Positions 7,446-30,491 of a stretch of DNA of 64,000 nt are shown one piece after another. This DNA comes from a virus. Position 1 is the first letter of the stretch. Every line of letters starts with the position of its first letter. The DNA is taken from positions 1 through 64,000 of the IMG/VR virus record IMGVR_UViG_3300025872_003406, one strand, 5' to 3'. The translations under genes and the position numbers were made by a program. The notes beneath the pieces are model-generated. The model saw nothing but the letters and a program-made list of their open reading frames with translations, did no database searches and was not told the origin of the DNA.

Positions 7446-7920
7446 GAAAGACCTTCTCGAGCACTACAAAAACGAGGCTGAACGCTGGCGGCATCTGGCA
7501 AGCTCGCGGCTGTCGGCTGACCCCGTATCGGCACGAGTTGCGTTCAAGGAGGATCAACGGCTGTACCGTAAGGTCGGCAAGAAGTTCGTTCCGGTCAATG
7601 ATCCCTACGCATACGATGGTCTGAGCAACGGATTCTGGCTGATCAGGATCTCGAATGGCTGCACATCGATTCGCCAGCAGATCTTCCCAGACAAGGCTCC
7701 GATTCATGCAGCGGCGCGAGATCTGGAGGACAAGCTTGTGGACATCATTCGTGCCGCTAGCGAAGCCCGTCCATCGAAGCAGCCGCTGACTCCGGCAGAG
7801 AAGAAGGACTGGGATGCCTTCATTAAGAAGCACGGTGAAAGCTTCAGCACCCTGCAGTATCCATCCATGCAGGAGAACGCCGAGAAGATCATCAAGGCCT
7901 TGATCGGAGAATCAAGGTGA
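7432..7920 (+). CDS. Hypothetical protein, 162 residues
   Basis: A soluble helical protein with a charged N terminus and a Lys-rich C terminus, no recognised domain. It ends the plus-strand block that starts at 5958 and overlaps the 3' end of the convergent lipoprotein gene by nine bases, with no obvious terminator between them. The upstream in-frame start at 7354 lies inside the previous gene. Confidence 0.6.
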   Translation: MTSNKKDLLEHYKNEAERWRHLASSRLSADPVSARVAFKEDQRLYRKVGKKFVPVNDPYAYDGLSNGFWLIRISNGCTSIRQQIFPDKAPIHAAARDLEDKLVDIIRAASEARPSKQPLTPAEKKDWDAFIKKHGESFSTLQYPSMQENAEKIIKALIGESR

Positions 7921-8898
7921 TGCAGGAGGTGGCGCTGGAGGTACTTCCGGCGCCTTCTTCTTTGAGAGCAGATCGATCTTGCCAGTCTTTGGATTGACCA
8001 CAATCATCACCACGATGAAGAGTCCCATGACTGTTGCTACGATCCAGAACGGAATGGTTGCAGCCACATAGGCCAGACCTAGCATTGCCACACCGGCAAT
8101 GATGAACGTCGGGCTCTTCATGAGGAAGCCGACCAGCAGGAGAAGGATGGACACGCCAAGAAGGGCCTTGACGATCATACTGACCATCTCCTGCCGTTGC
8201 TTTTCCTTGGCAATCTCCACGGCATCCTTGGCTTCCTTGAGCATGCGCTCGCGTTCTGCGGCCTGCTCATCCTGAATCTTCTTCAGAGCGCTTGCCTGAT
8301 CCATGCGAAGCTTTGCTTTCTCGGCCTCCTTCTTCTTGACCAGAGCATCGGCTTCCTCGTAACGCTTTGCTGCAGCCTGGGCTTCCTTGGTCTTCTGCTC
8401 GTACTTCTTCGTAATCTCGGCGAGTTCTTTCTTTACATCCTCTAGGATCTCGGCATCGATGGCTTTCTTTTTTGGATCCGGCACCGGCATGAGCATCTCT
8501 GCATTCTCTTTAGCCTTCAGGTTTGCGATCAGAACTCTCTTGTCCAAGCCCACGACTTCTTCCGTGGCAGAGATGATACCATAGTTGATCTCAGAGATCT
8601 TGTCAAAGTTCTCGTTGTCGACCTTCTCTCGAGCAGCATACGCTGCAGCCAATTCTTGGCGGAACTTCTCGTACTGGGCCTCCAGAGCTCTGCGGGCCTC
8701 CGCCTCGCGTCTGGCGATCTCTGACATACGGTCAATTGCTCCAGCAGTTGCCTGCGCACCTGCCACTGTTCCGCTGGTGTCTCCTGGTTTCTTGTTCAGT
8801 CTATCCCCTAGACTTCCAATCTTACTACCCAGCCCACTCAGCATCTGGCAGCCGGTTAAAAGCATTGATAAAGCAATAGCTGTAAGTACTCGCATCAT
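7912..8898 (-). CDS. Lipoprotein with coiled coil and C-terminal membrane segments, spanin-like layout
   Basis: The 328-residue protein begins with a lipoprotein signal (LLTGC, lipidation at Cys17) and continues as a long Glu/Lys/Ala-rich coiled coil of about residues 55-235. Three hydrophobic segments follow (about 241-263, 264-280, 281-301) and a Pro-rich tail. An outer-membrane lipid anchor joined by a periplasmic helix to inner-membrane segments is the arrangement of unimolecular spanins, which fuse the two membranes at lysis. Known ones are much shorter and have a single membrane segment, so the role is inferred. A late-type promoter ends six bases before the ATGATG start. Confidence 0.6.
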   Translation of the reverse strand: MMRVLTAIALSMLLTGCQMLSGLGSKIGSLGDRLNKKPGDTSGTVAGAQATAGAIDRMSEIARREAEARRALEAQYEKFRQELAAAYAAREKVDNENFDKISEINYGIISATEEVVGLDKRVLIANLKAKENAEMLMPVPDPKKKAIDAEILEDVKKELAEITKKYEQKTKEAQAAAKRYEEADALVKKKEAEKAKLRMDQASALKKIQDEQAAERERMLKEAKDAVEIAKEKQRQEMVSMIVKALLGVSILLLLVGFLMKSPTFIIAGVAMLGLAYVAATIPFWIVATVMGLFIVVMIVVNPKTGKIDLLSKKKAPEVPPAPPPASP

Positions 8899-8901
8899 CC
8901 G

Positions 8902-8919
8902 AGCTATTTATAAATAGCT
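8902..8919. promoter_or_regulatory. Palindromic bidirectional late promoter
   Basis: An 18-base perfect palindrome (AGCTATTTATAAATAGCT) contains TATAAATA on the plus strand (8909-8916) and on the minus strand (8912-8905). The minus copy ends six bases before the ATG of the lipoprotein gene. The plus copy faces the structural gene at 8957. Confidence 0.75.
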
Positions 8920-10238: not shown

Positions 10239-10277
10239 TATAAATAAAGGTGGTACTGCCCCGCGGTACCACCTTTT
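10239..10277 (+). promoter_or_regulatory. Late promoter fused to a terminator hairpin
   Basis: TATAAATA (10239-10246) is followed at once by AAGGTGGTAC (10247-10256), which pairs perfectly with GTACCACCTT (10266-10275) and then TTC. The hairpin can terminate the upstream glycosyltransferase transcript, while the octamer can start the 10283-16572 operon within or just after the 5' arm. Confidence 0.72.
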
Positions 10278-10282
10278 CTTTC

Positions 10283-10447
10283 ATGCCCTCAAGAACACCC
10301 CATGAGGAGAAGGCTTGGGCAATGGCCGTAGAATCCCTACAAGGACGCTACTGGACGTCGCGCGAACTTCTCTACACAACGATCATATCGGCGATCATCG
10401 GATTCGTCGGGGGCATGGCATTTCAAATACTTATTACCCATGGCTGA
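10283..10447 (+). CDS. Small membrane protein, 54 residues
   Basis: A polar N terminus is followed by one hydrophobic segment (about residues 30-50, IISAIIGFVGGMAF). The ATG at 10283 was chosen because the in-frame start at 10250 lies inside the terminator/promoter hairpin. It opens the operon leading to the curli genes and overlaps the next gene by eight bases. Confidence 0.55.
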   Translation: MPSRTPHEEKAWAMAVESLQGRYWTSRELLYTTIISAIIGFVGGMAFQILITHG

Positions 10448-10694
10448 CGATCCTATTTTCGATTTTGGTTTTACCGCAGTTGACGAGAACGAGCTGGAGG
10501 TCACAAAGCAAGTGGATGTGGCATACCAGCGTGTTGCAGAACACGAGGACAAACTCAACCGCCTCTACAATGCAATCCTTCCGCTCCTGCACAATCTGAA
10601 GAAGAATCCTGAGAAGGAATACATCAAGTGGCCTAATCGCGTCAAGAAGGTAGAGGAGTTCGAGACGTTCATCGCGAAGATCATCACTGAATGA
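10440..10694 (+). CDS. Conserved T4-like phage protein, 84 residues
   Basis: The protein begins MADDPIFDFGFTAVDENELE and ends with NPEKEYIKWPNRVKKVEEF, both well conserved in small helical proteins of cyanophage-type T4-like viruses. Its function is unknown. It overlaps its neighbours at both ends, so it is part of the same operon as the membrane coiled-coil genes. Confidence 0.7.
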   Translation: MADDPIFDFGFTAVDENELEVTKQVDVAYQRVAEHEDKLNRLYNAILPLLHNLKKNPEKEYIKWPNRVKKVEEFETFIAKIITE

Positions 10695-10975
10695 ACTTCG
10701 AGACCTTCAAGTCAATAATGGATCTGGGCTTCTCGGTGGCCGCAGTGGCCGTCGGTGGGGTCTTTATCGTTATTTTGCTGAAGTACATTCTGGCTGGAGT
10801 TGTTTCTGATGTGGAATCGCTCAACGGTCTAGCCACGATGCTGAACAATCGTATCCGTACCATGAACAACGATCTGATCCGGATCGACGCTCTTGTATCT
10901 TCGCGCTTCGGTCTGAGAGTCGATCTGGAAAGATTGGCACGTACTGACGGAAAGACCGATGCAAGAAGAGATTAA
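10691..10975 (+). CDS. Membrane-anchored coiled-coil protein
   Basis: The 94-residue protein has one transmembrane helix (about residues 12-37) followed by a helix with NNRIRTMNNDLIRID and a conserved C terminus RLARTDGKTDARRD. Similar proteins occur in marine T4-like phages without assigned function. It starts on an ATGA overlap and is related in layout to the next gene, which repeats the pattern of a membrane helix plus a DNDLIRLE helix. Confidence 0.65.
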   Translation: MNFETFKSIMDLGFSVAAVAVGGVFIVILLKYILAGVVSDVESLNGLATMLNNRIRTMNNDLIRIDALVSSRFGLRVDLERLARTDGKTDARRD

Positions 10976-11315
10976 CACTTTCAAGAATGCAGTAAACCAA
11001 TATGGTCTGCCCATCATGGCTGCAGGCGGTATGGGCTACTTCATTTACTTCGTCTGGAAATTCGTCACAGAGAACATCAATTCGAAGCTATCAGAGGCCA
11101 AGAAGACGATGATTGCTCTGATCGATCGAATTCGCATGCTCGATAATGATCTGATTCGCCTCGAGCAGAAAATAAATACTGCGATAGAAATGCAGCGTGG
11201 AGATAATCCAATCCAACGTACTAACCCTCCAATACCTAAACCAGATGAAACAAGACCGCAACAAGTCGTCGGACGTGTGGATGCTCCTAACGCTAGCAAT
11301 AATCCTGTTTCTTAG
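10959..11315 (+). CDS. Membrane-anchored coiled-coil protein, paralogue-like
   Basis: The 118-residue product has a membrane helix (about residues 16-37), then a helix with IDRIRMLDNDLIRLEQ matching the preceding protein, and a Pro-rich tail. It overlaps the upstream gene by 17 bases and the CsgF gene by 71 bases. The pair may form an inner-membrane complex, perhaps serving the curli export genes that follow; this role is inferred only from position. Confidence 0.6.
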   Translation: MQEEINTFKNAVNQYGLPIMAAGGMGYFIYFVWKFVTENINSKLSEAKKTMIALIDRIRMLDNDLIRLEQKINTAIEMQRGDNPIQRTNPPIPKPDETRPQQVVGRVDAPNASNNPVS

Positions 11316-11745
11316 CATAATGCCATCGTGTGTCCGTGCGTCGGACATGGTGCATGCATTTAAGTCTCCGGCGTTCAACGGTATTGGATATTCATCTCAC
11401 GTATTCACGCAGGAGAATCTGGCACGTACTCGTAAGCAGACGATCAAGGATGTTGCAAAGGCAGAGGCCGAGAACCTGAAGCTAGCCAGTCAGAACACCC
11501 CTCTCAATAACTTTATCGTCAACCTGCAGGCACGAATCTACTCGCAGCTCGCGTCTCAGGTCACCGACGAGATCTTCAATGCATCAGGCGCCACATTCGG
11601 TGTGATTAATCTGCAGGGAGGTGCGACTGTCACCTGGAATCGATCTGGTGACTTCGTGACACTTTACATCGTGGATCCTTCGACCGGAAACATGACCTCG
11701 ATTCAGGTACCGGTTGGTTCACTCACACCTCCACCCACGGGCTGA
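11245..11745 (+). CDS. csgF: Curli assembly protein CsgF homologue
   Basis: From the ATG at 11245 the 166-residue product has a basic N terminus, a hydrophobic signal segment ending near SCVRAS, then SDMVHAFKSPAFNGIGY, which matches the start of mature CsgF. NNFIVNLQARIYSQLA and a C-terminal beta part (VTLYIVDPSTGNMTSIQVP) follow, as in CsgF. CsgF sits at the outer rim of the CsgG pore and helps nucleate curli fibres. A GTG at 11197 is an alternative but gives no better signal. The gene overlaps the preceding one and couples to csgG. Confidence 0.82.
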   Translation: MKQDRNKSSDVWMLLTLAIILFLSIMPSCVRASDMVHAFKSPAFNGIGYSSHVFTQENLARTRKQTIKDVAKAEAENLKLASQNTPLNNFIVNLQARIYSQLASQVTDEIFNASGATFGVINLQGGATVTWNRSGDFVTLYIVDPSTGNMTSIQVPVGSLTPPPTG

Positions 11746-12557
11746 TGAGATCGATACTGGCAATCCTACTTGGAGTGTCTTTGGCCGGTTGCGGTTCGCT
11801 ACCGAAATCTCCTCGTATCATCGAGGCTCCGCTCGCCCAGCAATCACCTCTGCAGAAGCAACTCAACTCTCTGCCGACTGTGGATGGCAACCGAATCACC
11901 ATTGCAGTCTACACATTTGCCGACAAGACCGGTCAGAGAAAGACGGTTGATCAGTATGCATCTTTCTCATCGGCCGTCACACAGGGTGCAGAATCCTGGC
12001 TAATCGACGCCCTTCGTATTGCCGGCCAGGGTTCATGGTTCCAGGTTCTGGAGAGGGCATCTCTGGATAATCTCATCAAGGAACGTCAGCTGATCGCACA
12101 GACGCGTGAATCCTTCTTTGGTAAAGAGGCTGAGAAACTATCACCGCTTCTCTTTGCTGGAATCATCGCAGAGGGTGGCATCATCGGTTACGACACAAAC
12201 GTCCTGACCGGTGGTGCTGGTGCCAGCTTGCTAGGAATCTCTGGTAGCACTCAGTACCGCAAGGATGTGGTCACTGTTTCCCTTCGATTCATCTCGGTTC
12301 AGACCGGCGAGGTTCTGCTCTCCGTGGCGGTCACGAAGACCATCACGAGCGTAGCGACCTCTGGAAACCTTTTTAAGTTTTATGAGCATGGAGTAACTCC
12401 CGCAGAATCAGAAATTGGCCTGACGGCGAACGAACCCAACACAATTGCGGTTCGAAGCGCTATCGACCAAGCTGTGATTGAAATCATACATCAGGGAGCC
12501 AAAACTGGATTATGGAAATTCGTCACAGCTAACAACCAACCCACAACAGAAAAATGA
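11745..12557 (+). CDS. csgG: Curli secretion channel CsgG homologue
   Basis: The 270-residue lipoprotein has a lipobox LAGC (Cys at residue 17) and the CsgG core: RITIAVYTFADKTGQRK, a long helix region, ERASLDNLIKERQ, GGIIGYDTNVLTGGAGA and RKDVVTVSLRFISVQTGEV. CsgG forms a nonameric outer-membrane pore that exports curlin. Standalone CsgG genes are known in marine T4-like phages; here it stands between CsgF and a curlin-repeat protein. The start codon overlaps the csgF stop, and its own stop overlaps the next start (ATGA). Confidence 0.92.
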   Translation: MRSILAILLGVSLAGCGSLPKSPRIIEAPLAQQSPLQKQLNSLPTVDGNRITIAVYTFADKTGQRKTVDQYASFSSAVTQGAESWLIDALRIAGQGSWFQVLERASLDNLIKERQLIAQTRESFFGKEAEKLSPLLFAGIIAEGGIIGYDTNVLTGGAGASLLGISGSTQYRKDVVTVSLRFISVQTGEVLLSVAVTKTITSVATSGNLFKFYEHGVTPAESEIGLTANEPNTIAVRSAIDQAVIEIIHQGAKTGLWKFVTANNQPTTEK

Positions 12558-13360
12558 AGACCTCAGTCGTAGCACTCACACTGCTTCTGCTCTCAGCTGC
12601 GACAGCACTGGCTCAGAATCAGATCTACATCAATCAGATAACAACTGGTGGAAACACCACTCTCGTTCAGGTCGGAAGCCTGAACAAAATCGGCACTTCG
12701 GCTGCAGCCCAAAGTGACATCACAGGAGACAACATCGTGTTCGAGATGCGCCAGATCGGCAACAGTAACGACACGAAGTTCTCCATTGCTAGCGCAAACA
12801 ATCTGAAACTTCTGACCGTTGCTACTGGCAACAGCAACAATCAGCAGTACTATTTCAGTGGCGCCAGCAACAACGCAAACATACTGCTGAATGGAAACTC
12901 AAACAAGTTCTTGCTCAACGGGGACACCTCGGTGGATCACACGTCGAATTCGGACACCACTAAGGCTACCTTCACAAACTCGGACCTTATCTTCAACGTT
13001 CAAGGTAATTCCAACGACCTTCGCTTTGGAATTAGTTCCGGCAAATACAACTATCTGGACTTCTCGATCACTGGTGACTCCAATAACATCAAGTCCACCC
13101 AGATCGGAAACCCAGGTGGCGCTGCTGCAAAAACTGGCCACGAACAGACCGTTGTGCTTACAGGCTCCAGCAACAACCTGACAATCTATCAGGCAGGACT
13201 GGAAAAGCAGACGCTGAACTATAACCTGACAGGTTCCACAAACACCGTCCAGATCGTTCAGACGACTGCCGGTTATGCTCCCGTCATGACAACGACTGGA
13301 ACAAACGGACCAACTGGACCATCACAGACAACCAACTCGATCACTCCTCCAGGAAATTGA
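12554..13360 (+). CDS. Curlin-repeat (CsgA/CsgB-like) secreted protein
   Basis: The 268-residue product starts with a signal peptide (cleavage after ATALA, residue 20). It then shows curlin-like strands such as NQITTGGNTTLVQVGSLNK and at least eight later G-x-S/T-N repeats (GNSNDTK, GNSNNQQ, GASNNAN, GNSNKFL, GNSNDLR, GDSNNIK, GSSNNLT, GSTNTVQ). The spacing is less regular than in CsgA and the C terminus is Thr/Pro-rich, so it may be a divergent subunit. It is the natural substrate of the CsgG/CsgF pair just upstream, to which it is translationally coupled. Confidence 0.75.
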   Translation: MKTSVVALTLLLLSAATALAQNQIYINQITTGGNTTLVQVGSLNKIGTSAAAQSDITGDNIVFEMRQIGNSNDTKFSIASANNLKLLTVATGNSNNQQYYFSGASNNANILLNGNSNKFLLNGDTSVDHTSNSDTTKATFTNSDLIFNVQGNSNDLRFGISSGKYNYLDFSITGDSNNIKSTQIGNPGGAAAKTGHEQTVVLTGSSNNLTIYQAGLEKQTLNYNLTGSTNTVQIVQTTAGYAPVMTTTGTNGPTGPSQTTNSITPPGN

Positions 13361-13375
13361 TCTAGTCTTTAGATC

Positions 13376-14530
13376 ATGAAGTTACCACGGACAGCCGCTA
13401 TTGCTCTGGCTTTAGCGGCTGCTTCGTCTGCAAAGGCCTTCATCGGAAAGATGATGGAGGTCACCGGCCCTACTCAGATCGTACGAGGAAAAGACAAGAT
13501 CGAAGGAAAGGTAGAGGTCGGAGTCGAGATGAACGACTCGGTCGAGACCCTGAAGTCCCGCGTCTCCATCACATTTGAGGACAACACCAAGATGCAGGTG
13601 ACCGAGTTCTCGAAACTCAAGATCGACGAGTTCGTCTACGATCCGAAGAGTGGAAAGGGATCTCTGTCCGTCAAGGCGGCATTCGGTACCGTACGGTATG
13701 CATCCGGAGCCATTGCCAAGAACAGCAAGGAGAACGTCAAGGTTCAGACTCCAACGGCCAAGGTGTCGGTTCGTGGCACTGACTTCTCGATGACAGTATC
13801 CGAGGATGGCAAGAGTCTGATCGTGCTGTTGCCATCGAAACCATTAGCGGCCGGAGGACCTCCTTTGGTCGGAGAGATCTCGGTGTCGAATCTCTCCGGT
13901 ACGGTACTATTGAATCAGGCTTATCAGGCCACCTTCGTGGCATCATCCACGATTGCACCGACAGTACCAGTGGTACTAGACTTTCAGGACGAATCTAAAA
14001 TCAATAACATGCTCATCGTAGAGACACCGCGACAGGTAACGCAGGCAGTCAAGGAGCAGAAGAAAGAAAAGCAGACACAATCGAGCAATGAAGAAGATAC
14101 CAAGCCGAAAAAAGGCACAAGCACAAAGTCTGAGAGCAACAAGACTGCGGTTTCTCAGGTCGATACGCCACCAGCTGCTGAAGCAGTGGCTCAGGCAGAA
14201 GAAGCACCTCCTGTCGAAACTAAGCTAGAGCTTGCAGCAATACAACCTGCAGTTCTTCAGGCAGCTGCTGCAGCAATTGAGAAGGTTGTGGCACCGGCTG
14301 CACCAGCGGCACCGGTTGTTCCTGTTCTGGTGAGCATGACCACCAATCCTGGATGGTCCACGGATGGAGTGAATGCCGTGTTGTCTCTGGATAATAGTGG
14401 TCAGATTCTGTACTACAGCACGAAGGCAAACGCCAGCCTGACGGTCGAGGTCACAACAAATTCAGGAACGAAGTCATATCCACTCAACTTCGGTGATAAA
14501 TTAAAGGTGAACGTCACACAAAAGAAATGA
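13376..14530 (+). CDS. FecR-domain exported protein
   Basis: The 384-residue protein has a signal peptide (to about residue 21) and a FecR domain at about residues 25-140, with SITFEDNTKMQVTEFSKLKI, DEFVYDP, FGTVRYASGAIAK and TPTAKVSVRGTDF as hallmarks. A Lys/Glu/Ser linker and an Ala/Pro-rich stretch (about 265-325) lead to a small C-terminal beta domain. FecR domains in the periplasm act as sensors or regulators. In bacteria such proteins often lie beside CHASE2-type cyclases, as here, where the stop overlaps the cyclase start by ATGA. It probably relays a surface or periplasmic signal to the cyclase. Confidence 0.85.
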   Translation: MKLPRTAAIALALAAASSAKAFIGKMMEVTGPTQIVRGKDKIEGKVEVGVEMNDSVETLKSRVSITFEDNTKMQVTEFSKLKIDEFVYDPKSGKGSLSVKAAFGTVRYASGAIAKNSKENVKVQTPTAKVSVRGTDFSMTVSEDGKSLIVLLPSKPLAAGGPPLVGEISVSNLSGTVLLNQAYQATFVASSTIAPTVPVVLDFQDESKINNMLIVETPRQVTQAVKEQKKEKQTQSSNEEDTKPKKGTSTKSESNKTAVSQVDTPPAAEAVAQAEEAPPVETKLELAAIQPAVLQAAAAAIEKVVAPAAPAAPVVPVLVSMTTNPGWSTDGVNAVLSLDNSGQILYYSTKANASLTVEVTTNSGTKSYPLNFGDKLKVNVTQKK

Positions 14531-16572
14531 AGAAACATACTTTGAAGACTCTCCTGGTCGGATTCTCCGTACTGGCAATCGCGGTTGTCCTGCGTATCTG
14601 GGATCCGTATCCCATCGAGGTACTGAGACTCAAGGGTCTGGACTATTACCAGAGAGTCCAGGAGAAGAAGCCGTCGGATAACATTGCCGTCATCGAGATC
14701 GATGAGGATTCGCTGGAGGCCAATGGCCAATGGCCCTGGAAGCGTGATGTTCTGGCAGCCGGGATCAACCGGGCATTCGAGGCCGGTGCTTCGGCCGTGG
14801 TTCTTCCGATCATCTTTGCAGAACCTGACCGTCTGGGAGGAGACTCGGCTTTCGTTGATCAGCTTGGCAAAGCTCCGGTCATCATCGCACAGTCTGCTGC
14901 CCAGAAGGGTAAAGGAGAACCGGTACCGCGTGGATTGGCTACTATCGGTGGTGGAGCCGAGGATTGGCTATTCGATTATCCAGCGGCAATAGGACCTATC
15001 AGTGACGTTGGTAAATCGGCTGCTGGGGTCGGAATGTTGCTGACCGCACCGGAGCTTGATGGAGTCGTTCGCCGGTTGCCTCTGATCGTGCAGGTCAAGG
15101 GAGAGAAGTATCCGACCCTGCCGCTCGAGGTGCTTCGTGTCTTCGGCGGAGAGGCAAGTAACCAGGCCAAAGTCACCGAGGCCGGAATCAAGATGATCCG
15201 CGTCGCCGGCATTCCTCCGATCAGTACAGATGCGAATGCACGCGTCTGGCTCAATTTCAAGTACACCTTCCCATCAGTTTCGTATGCATCCAAGGACTGG
15301 AGTGCAGTGAAGGGCAAGATCGTGGTGATCGCTCCGACCGCTGAAGGTCTGGCGAACACCGTGGCAACTCCTCTTGGGACTAGCTACGGATACGAGGTGA
15401 ACATCCAGGCTCTCCAGATGCTCATCGATTCGGCCCGACTGGATCGCCCGGCAGAGTTCGATCTGTACGAACTGGGAGCCGGATTCCTGATCTCTGCAAT
15501 CGCCGTCATCACGATCTGCTATCTCGGTTATTCCTTGGCCGGTCTGATCTTTGCAGTGCTGATGGTGGCTCCGATCTGGACAGGCTTTCACCTGTTCTCG
15601 AACTATGGATTTCTGGCAGACTTCACCTGGGCCTGCGGTGCTCTGGTTGTGGCCTGGGGATCCGCTCTCTTCATGAGATTCGTCATGGAGTTCAAGCTGA
15701 AGCAGCAGATCAAGAAGCAGTTCGAAACATACCTTTCACCAGACCAGGTCGCTCAGCTCCAGAAGAACCCGGATGCCCTGAAATTGGGTGGCGAGGAACG
15801 CGAGCTGTCCATCATGTTCACCGATGTTCGTGGGTTCACTGCCATCTCGGAGCACTACGGAAAGAACGTGCAGGGACTGACTCAGATCATGAACCGTTAC
15901 ATGACGGCCATGACTCGGTCGATCATCGAGAAGAAGGGAACCCTGGACAAGTACATCGGTGATGCTCAGATGGCCTTCTGGAACGCACCTCTGGATGATA
16001 GCTCTCATGCCATCCATGCGGTCGAGACCGGACTGGAGATGATGGGCAGTCTGAAAGCTTTCAACGAGGAGATCGCCAAGGAAGGTGTTCCGGCCTTCGG
16101 AATGGGTCTCGGCATCAACACCGGAGTCGTGGTGGTCGGCAACATGGGATCCGAGCAACGGTTCGATTACACCTGCCTCGGTGACCACGTCAATCTGGCC
16201 TCTCGCCTCGAGGGTCAGTCAAAGCCGTACGGCGTCAAGATCGTCCTCGGGCCTCTCACACGTGAACGCGTGAAGGACGTGTTCCCGACCCTCGAGCTTG
16301 ACTGCATCGCGGTGAAGGGAAAGAAGGAAGGAGTCAAGATCTACACGGTCTTCGACAAGGGCACCAAGATCTACTCGGAATCCCACGACCAATTCCTGCA
16401 GCTCTACCGCGGCCAGAAATGGAAGGAGGCGATCAAGCTCGCCAAGGATCTATCCTCCCATATGGACTTCATGTCCGGCTACTACGAGATGATGATCGAG
16501 CGCATCGAGTACCTCAAGGACAACGATCCTGGCGCGAATTGGGACGGAGTTTACAGAGCAACTTCGAAGTGA
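14527..16572 (+). CDS. CHASE2-domain class III adenylate/guanylate cyclase
   Basis: The 681-residue membrane protein has an N-terminal membrane helix (about 8-25), a periplasmic CHASE2 sensor (about 30-310, with DNIAVIEIDEDSLEANGQWPW), three further membrane helices (about 312-385) and a class III cyclase domain from about 425. Metal-binding Asp433 (MFTDVRGF) and Asp479 (KYIGDA), Lys475, and Asn556/Arg560 of NLASRLEG are all present, so the enzyme should be active; Lys475 favours ATP as substrate. It would make cAMP in response to a periplasmic signal, perhaps through the FecR protein. It is the last gene of the curli operon. Confidence 0.9.
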   Translation: MKKHTLKTLLVGFSVLAIAVVLRIWDPYPIEVLRLKGLDYYQRVQEKKPSDNIAVIEIDEDSLEANGQWPWKRDVLAAGINRAFEAGASAVVLPIIFAEPDRLGGDSAFVDQLGKAPVIIAQSAAQKGKGEPVPRGLATIGGGAEDWLFDYPAAIGPISDVGKSAAGVGMLLTAPELDGVVRRLPLIVQVKGEKYPTLPLEVLRVFGGEASNQAKVTEAGIKMIRVAGIPPISTDANARVWLNFKYTFPSVSYASKDWSAVKGKIVVIAPTAEGLANTVATPLGTSYGYEVNIQALQMLIDSARLDRPAEFDLYELGAGFLISAIAVITICYLGYSLAGLIFAVLMVAPIWTGFHLFSNYGFLADFTWACGALVVAWGSALFMRFVMEFKLKQQIKKQFETYLSPDQVAQLQKNPDALKLGGEERELSIMFTDVRGFTAISEHYGKNVQGLTQIMNRYMTAMTRSIIEKKGTLDKYIGDAQMAFWNAPLDDSSHAIHAVETGLEMMGSLKAFNEEIAKEGVPAFGMGLGINTGVVVVGNMGSEQRFDYTCLGDHVNLASRLEGQSKPYGVKIVLGPLTRERVKDVFPTLELDCIAVKGKKEGVKIYTVFDKGTKIYSESHDQFLQLYRGQKWKEAIKLAKDLSSHMDFMSGYYEMMIERIEYLKDNDPGANWDGVYRATSK

Positions 16573-18024: not shown

Positions 18025-18456
18025 ATGAAAGTCAAGCTCACCCTCGCCCTCCTCGCCACCGCGATCTCGGCCACCGCCGACACCCCGCGCCTGATCGAGG
18101 CTCTGGTCCGAGTCGAGTCCAACGGTAAGGCCAACGCGGTCGGTGACTCCGGCAAGGCCTTCGGCATCCTGCAGATCCATGAGATCACTGTGAAGGAAGC
18201 CAACCGTTTGGCCCAGACGCGCTTCACCCATGCGGACATGATGAATCCTACCAAGTCCCGTGAGGTCGCCACGATCGTCCTGAACCACTACGCCAAGCAC
18301 ATCCAGAAGACCACCGGACGCGAGGCGTCCGAGCAGGAACTGGCCTACATCTGGAACGGTGGAGCGTCATCCTGGAAGCGCGTGGCGGCTCCTCAGAATG
18401 ACACCAAACAGAAGAACCTTGAGCGTTACTGGAGCAAGGTTTCCCGAGTTCTCTGA
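18025..18456 (+). CDS. Exported lytic transglycosylase (SLT-like)
   Basis: The 143-residue protein has a signal peptide (cleavage near residue 18) and a lysozyme-like fold: catalytic Glu31 in VRVESNGKANAVG, GILQI at 47-51, and WNGG at 110-113. Such enzymes cleave the glycan chain of peptidoglycan in the periplasm. Unusually for a lysis enzyme it sits behind an early-type, operator-bearing promoter rather than a late one. It could therefore serve cell-wall remodelling or complex insertion, or replace the missing gp5 lysozyme activity in part, rather than lysis itself. Confidence 0.8.
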   Translation: MKVKLTLALLATAISATADTPRLIEALVRVESNGKANAVGDSGKAFGILQIHEITVKEANRLAQTRFTHADMMNPTKSREVATIVLNHYAKHIQKTTGREASEQELAYIWNGGASSWKRVAAPQNDTKQKNLERYWSKVSRVL

Positions 18457-30050: not shown

Positions 30051-30491
30051 CTAAAGTATCTTGATGCCCAGTCCACGCAGAGTCTCTTCAGTCCATACCT
30101 CGAACGACCAACCACGATCTGCGGCATATTCCTTGGCCGCTTCCCACTTGCTGATGTTCTTCGCGTAGGTCATGACCTCGGTGATGTACTTACGTGTCTT
30201 CTTGCCAGGATTCTTTGGAGGCTGAGATTCCTTCTTCGGCTTCACCTCGATCAGTATGACCCTGCCATCCGTGAACTCAGCCTTGACATCGACGAAGTAG
30301 CGATGGATCTTGCCATCCGTCTTACACCGGTATGGCACCACAACCTCCTCCGAGGACCATGATTTGATGTGAGATCCCTCGTCTAGCCACCGAAAGAGTT
30401 GACGCTCCCACAGCGACCGATAGACGATGTTTGTGATATCGCCTCGGTACTTCGAAGGGTTCTGTGGAAGGAATTTACCTCGGTAACTCAT
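30051..30491 (-). CDS. 4: Head completion protein gp4
   Basis: From the ATG at 30491 the product has 146 residues and begins MSYRGKFLPQNPSKYRGD, close to the typical start of gp4. A nuclease-like core follows (YRSLWERQLFRWLDE, YFVDVKAEFTDG, ILIEVKPKKE), resembling Vsr/Mrr-type folds. gp4 completes DNA-filled heads before tail joining. A TTG four codons upstream is not needed. It is transcribed away from gp48. Confidence 0.85.
   Translation of the reverse strand: MSYRGKFLPQNPSKYRGDITNIVYRSLWERQLFRWLDEGSHIKSWSSEEVVVPYRCKTDGKIHRYFVDVKAEFTDGRVILIEVKPKKESQPPKNPGKKTRKYITEVMTYAKNISKWEAAKEYAADRGWSFEVWTEETLRGLGIKIL

Follow-up and report, generated by a model that had tools for sequence, protein, structure and literature searches.

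We analysed a 64-kb stretch of DNA (the window) out of the 81.6-kb IMG/VR viral record IMGVR_UViG_3300025872_003406, which is itself a fragment, and concentrated on a tightly packed series of plus-strand frames at positions 10283 to 16572, in which each gene either shares 1-4 bases with its neighbour or is separated from it by 15. A first-pass annotation of the window had assigned to this operon genes for CsgF, CsgG, a curlin-repeat protein, a FecR-domain protein and a CHASE2-class III cyclase, and Pfam searches, supplemented by a family profile in the case of the curlin-repeat protein, found all five at the position and on the strand claimed. The CsgF homologue (11281..11745; PF10614, 7.5e-16) is followed by a homologue of the outer-membrane curli channel CsgG (11745..12557; PF03783, 1.1e-49), by the curlin-repeat protein as predicted fibre subunit (12554..13360), by a FecR-domain protein with a signal peptide (13376..14530; PF04773, 2e-10) and by a CHASE2 receptor with a class III adenylate cyclase domain (14527..16572; CHASE2 PF05226, 1e-42; Guanylate_cyc PF00211, 2.9e-20).

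The signatures expected of the channel components are retained. A profile of the CsgG family could be aligned over its full length to solved CsgG (2.7e-70) with the lipoprotein cysteine in place, and the CsgF family keeps an FxxPxFxG motif, which aligns weakly (E 0.011) to FRNPNFGG of E. coli CsgF. The N-terminal segment of CsgF, the part entering the CsgG channel, is conserved, and the signal peptide together with the spacing of the ribosome site indicates that CsgF probably starts at 11281 rather than at 11197, where the longest frame begins. The curlin-like protein, when searched as a single sequence, matched nothing in Pfam or the PDB, so that a family profile was needed to establish its identity. 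This profile, built from 48 viral curlin homologues, matched solved curlins (8c50 at 8.7e-18 and E. coli CsgA, 8enq, at 5.2e-5). In the AlphaFold model (pLDDT 82.7) short strands form a regular ladder, for which Foldseek returned no neighbour at E <= 0.001. The number of GxxN motifs was equalled in just 4 of 5000 shuffles, and many of the motifs are spaced 11-12 or 23 residues apart. We take the product of 12554..13360 to be a genuine curlin-repeat protein, which is predicted to form amyloid.

The cyclase was said in the first-pass annotation to possess all catalytic residues, and these were confirmed as the metal-binding aspartates D433 and D479, the substrate lysine K475, T549, the transition-state residue N556 and R560. 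Both aspartates, the lysine and the arginine are invariant in 48/48 phage copies of the enzyme; the other two positions hold Thr and Asn in 31 copies, Asp and Ser in 14, and other combinations that keep Asn in 3. Lysine together with threonine is the pattern of class IIIb adenylate cyclases, which makes ATP the likely substrate of the window cyclase and cyclic AMP (cAMP) its predicted product. The active-site type, Thr/Asn or Asp/Ser, differs among close relatives (L006 and L009 versus L008 and L010), suggesting that catalytic domains have been exchanged.

In Foldseek the model of the FecR-domain protein retrieved PupR and BDI_1681 with a probability of 1.00 and a TM-score of ~0.53 by target, a fold like that of the PupR signalling domain. 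Neither Pfam nor the model revealed an N-terminal cytoplasmic anti-sigma domain, all that precedes the FecR domain being a short helix compatible with a signal peptide. FecR-domain proteins were found in 144 of 385 alphaproteobacterial genomes and relatives of the CHASE2-cyclase (at 1e-60) in 176, and the matches listed for these genomes include at least 23 FecR/CHASE2-cyclase pairs besides the one in Hyphomonas described below, with gaps of 135-3066 bases. Sensory clusters of FecR with a CHASE2-adenylate cyclase have been described in Campylobacterota (PMC9239204), as has a FecR/CHASE2-kinase BiofilmReg operon in Burkholderia (PMC5192318). As the pairing is both common in bacteria and published, the phage FecR protein is best read as the periplasmic partner of the cyclase, and is probably not the iron regulator for which it has been taken (PMC9599517).

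The final ~50 residues of the FecR-domain protein are modelled with a strand spacing as in the curlin ladder, and there is an invariant Gln at the terminus. This region aligns to the last curlin repeats (P 6e-4), and its comparison with the curlin profile scored 24.9, whereas reversed controls gave ~15 and shuffles at most 19.4; with well-filled columns only, the score fell to 17.7, at a different place. These partly supportive controls give a weak hint of a curlin-like repeat at the end of FecR.

The gene set was then compared across viral loci with enough sequence, recovered by searches that were seeded by phage-like sequences and do not gauge phages lacking the set. The order CsgF-CsgG-curlin-FecR-(curlin)-cyclase was kept in 35/35 loci found through CsgG, 34 of them entirely on one strand, and the set was present in 44/45 loci found through the cyclase (42 on one strand); at the sole exception, L250, CsgG lies ~14 kb off on the same contig. 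Every locus with the set has a curlin gene and often a second copy. It had been considered that related phages might carry the curli and cyclase genes independently, in unrelated places, and the near-absolute linkage shows that in these viral loci they do not. Between the window and its near relatives L004/L005, the ratio of nonsynonymous to synonymous divergence (dN/dS) was 0.01-0.06 for those genes where it could be computed, with the curlin gene under purifying selection; one CsgF value for L004 was disregarded owing to 17 misaligned codons, and for the cyclase, synonymous sites were saturated, with a dN of 0.08. The module was also found on five viral contigs of 236-364 kb (L067, L260, L223, L271 and L231), which carry a large terminase and fall in the size range of jumbo phages, chimeric assembly being possible, and so is not confined to phages of SAR11 and OM43. 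In the podophage MW574966, the 50 kb covered out of 59.8 kb contain no annotated curli gene. At L078, L252, L265 and L266 the distance from CsgF to CsgG is ~2-2.5 kb, and an extra gene may thus be inserted there.

A T4-type late promoter sequence, TATAAATA, stands just upstream of the operon (10239..10246, plus strand), the next copy on this strand occurring only at 30491, and the window holds 10 copies against 1.16 expected. This supports the earlier placement of the operon behind a late promoter. The last base of the promoter sequence is the first base of a strong terminator-like hairpin (10246..10276, plus strand; a 14-pair stem, then a T-rich tail), and late transcripts should consequently begin within the hairpin and not form it. 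At 8905-8916, two further late-promoter sequences lie back to back, overlapping on opposite strands. The series of frames opens with a 54-aa frame containing one hydrophobic stretch (10283..10447, plus strand), a putative member of the module by frame and position only, which had no relative among the fetched loci, and continues with an 84-aa frame (10440..10694, plus strand) that is conserved in the nearest relatives only, where it lies 5' of the next gene, TM1 (L004, L005, L031 and L050).

TM1 (10691..10975) and TM2 (10959..11315), both on the plus strand, are short paralogous membrane proteins, each with an N-terminal hydrophobic stretch and then a helical tail (PHROG 18771). Of the viral loci found through the cyclase, 44/45 have them with the module, on its own strand when they lie upstream and on the opposite strand when they lie downstream; many close relatives with a G+C content of ~38% have neither in the fetched range. 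The TM1 protein is identical between the window and L004/L005 despite a synonymous divergence (dS) of 0.38-0.48. No kinase domain was detected in TM1 or TM2. A 'histidine kinase, sometimes two' has been reported 5' of CsgF and left out of trees as short, diverged or paralogous (PMC9599517); TM1 and TM2 match this account, by description only, and as they show no kinase domain the published label is probably wrong.

A copy of the operon in a bacterial setting was found on a 705-kb contig of Hyphomonas sp. TMED17, where CsgF, CsgG, curlin, FecR and CHASE2-cyclase genes follow each other in the phage order, flanked upstream by metabolic genes and downstream by an oxygenase gene; TM1 and TM2 were undetected at this operon. 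Among 80 CsgG loci fetched from genome contigs, it was the only bacterial setting that combined curli genes with FecR and CHASE2-cyclase. A CsgF of the Hyphomonas/phage type was present in none of the other members of the 385 alphaproteobacterial genomes and in none of 150 relatives, and a scan of genome contigs with a single cyclase sequence gave no match. In the CsgG tree the Hyphomonas TMED17 sequence groups with the viral ones on a long branch, from which the direction of transfer is not readable. This operon qualifies the published statement that bacterial curli operons contain no FecR or cyclase. Eight entries filed as bacterial metagenome-assembled genomes (L086, L087, L088, L100, L101, L112, L115 and L124), with Synechococcus, Pirellulales and Bacteroidota among their labels, were not accepted as further bacterial copies, since their CsgG falls in the viral group and seven of them carry TM1/TM2, making misplaced phage DNA the probable source; their flanks contain no gene of the window's phage, and a phage origin is thus unproven.

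The window phage is a T4-like myovirus, as judged from homologues of gp32 and gp59 and from genes for head closure, the tail tube and the baseplate. For the baseplate wedge protein, the closest matches are those of Methylophilales phage Melnitz and pelagimyophages, at ~35% identity, and the window phage's G+C content is 48.5%, against 33-37% in the module loci of those phages. On the minus strand at 7912-8898 lies a gene for a lipoprotein-like product with a coiled coil and membrane stretches, to which Rz-like spanins matched weakly. A transglycosylase-like protein with a likely signal peptide is encoded at 18025-18456 (plus strand), and the nearest relatives L004, L005, L031 and L050 conserve it downstream of the module.

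Our preferred reading, given with moderate confidence, is that the phage uses the operon to make a curli (type VIII) export system that includes a signalling arm, so that amyloid at the cell surface is paired, late on, with a gauge linked to cAMP. An outer-membrane channel lacking a CsgE gate would be built from CsgG and CsgF late in infection, and the curlin-repeat protein would pass through it and assemble as amyloid on the infected cell. Once secreted, the FecR-domain protein would act as partner of CHASE2 in the periplasm and inform the cyclase of how export or fibre assembly stands; the cyclase would then produce cAMP inside the host. TM1 and TM2 may aid in assembling or positioning the complex. 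The benefit would most likely be a changed host surface late on, with cells and progeny aggregated or rival phages excluded, and this is the unproven step; the first-pass annotation likewise conjectured that sister cells or virions are held or other phages blocked. In a more specific version, which we consider doubtful, FecR would attach by a curlin-like strand pair at its C-terminus to the growing amyloid or to the export channel, CHASE2 would sense this attachment and the cyclase would convert amyloid export to cAMP. The virus would then have a gauge for amyloid to which TM1 and TM2 belong as regular components, and the module would be kin to an operon on rare alphaproteobacterial chromosomes.

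Several observations weigh against the preferred reading of amyloid export coupled to signalling. A search that detected the E. coli control found no CsgE in the 81.6-kb fragment, the Hyphomonas genome or any of five further viral contigs, and the complete export set of the first-pass annotation therefore stands for CsgF, CsgG and curlin and holds only without CsgE, a protein that boosts yield and is not essential (PMC7029224). In the sole culture observation in print, Melnitz-infected cells showed no clumping under the conditions used (PMC9004378). Finally, the 14/48 phage cyclases with Ser in place of the catalytic-site Asn may be catalytically weak.

The missing CsgE gate also fits an alternative put forward for Melnitz (PMC9004378), namely that the CsgG/CsgF pore has been repurposed for lysis timing, as a gated channel of the secretin or pinholin kind through which the envelope is depolarised or perforated, under regulation by the other genes. 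The late promoter, the small membrane proteins that travel along with the module and the secreted transglycosylase-like gene ~1.5 kb downstream in near relatives would suit such a role. However, a pore alone has no need of a curlin gene that is always there, often doubled and under purifying selection; the fibre genes, stated to be absent in PMC9004378, are found by the curlin family profile, and the conserved N-terminal segment of CsgF is kept. We consider a lysis-timing pore unlikely.

To us it also seems improbable that the signalling arm is the main purpose, with the cyclase raising host cAMP to redirect host metabolism and the curli part serving chiefly as sensor input. The invariant Asp, Lys and Arg, the fixed place of the cyclase in the gene order and the standing of FecR-CHASE2 as an established type of bacterial sensory pair all fit this view, but the export and fibre genes are just as constant, the second curlin gene of many phages favours bulk fibre, and a late promoter would act late for a metabolic takeover. 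Another idea, raised from the ungated pore and the FecR name (PMC7029224; PMC9599517), is that siderophores, cobalamin or other large molecules are taken up through the channel to serve phage replication, FecR being a regulator that responds to iron. This is very unlikely, as the FecR protein is a periplasmic domain only, FecR accompanies CHASE2-cyclases in bacteria and the operon is placed behind a late promoter.

The first-pass annotation had stated that only CsgG was known in marine T4-like phages and that the linked set was undescribed. This was wrong, since CsgF, CsgG, CsgA/B, FecR and adenylate cyclase have been given as a conserved phage module for type VIII secretion (PMC9599517; also PMC7029224 and PMC9004378) in work published in 2020-2022. 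The idea of 'sibling capture' comes from PMC7029224, and superinfection defence has likewise been proposed in the published work on the module. With both the gene set and the main hypotheses in print, the window operon adds a member to a described module, with useful corrections. Beyond the literature are the linkage counts, FecR as probable partner of the cyclase, the Hyphomonas operon, the doubt on the kinase label, the invariance of cyclase residues and the weak curlin-like end of FecR. For a module that was known but unexplained, the question is thereby narrowed, its FecR-cyclase half being a common bacterial sensory pair and its cyclase having been kept as an enzyme. In a marine alphaproteobacterium the module has a cellular relative on the chromosome, in which function is perhaps easier to study. 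If the system is functional, a virus would be dressing its host in amyloid and monitoring that amyloid through cAMP.

Among known systems, the pelagiphage type VIII module of HTVC008M and Melnitz has the same order of CsgF, CsgG, curlin, FecR, (second curlin) and CHASE2-cyclase, with two small membrane genes 5' of CsgF. The window phage differs in being a distant T4-like relative of higher G+C content without a second curlin gene, and its TM1 and TM2 depart from the published label in showing no kinase domain. Genes for CsgF, CsgG and curlin repeats are adjacent in bacterial curli operons too (csgBAC/csgDEFG of E. coli and alphaproteobacterial loci), whereas the phage operon shows no CsgE and adds FecR and the CHASE2-cyclase. 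In the FecR and CHASE2 clusters of Campylobacterota and Burkholderia, the gene for a FecR-domain envelope protein adjoins that for a CHASE2 receptor, as it does in the phage; in contrast to these clusters, the phage operon has no known phosphodiesterase or response regulator, and its FecR-CHASE2 pair is joined to a curli exporter.

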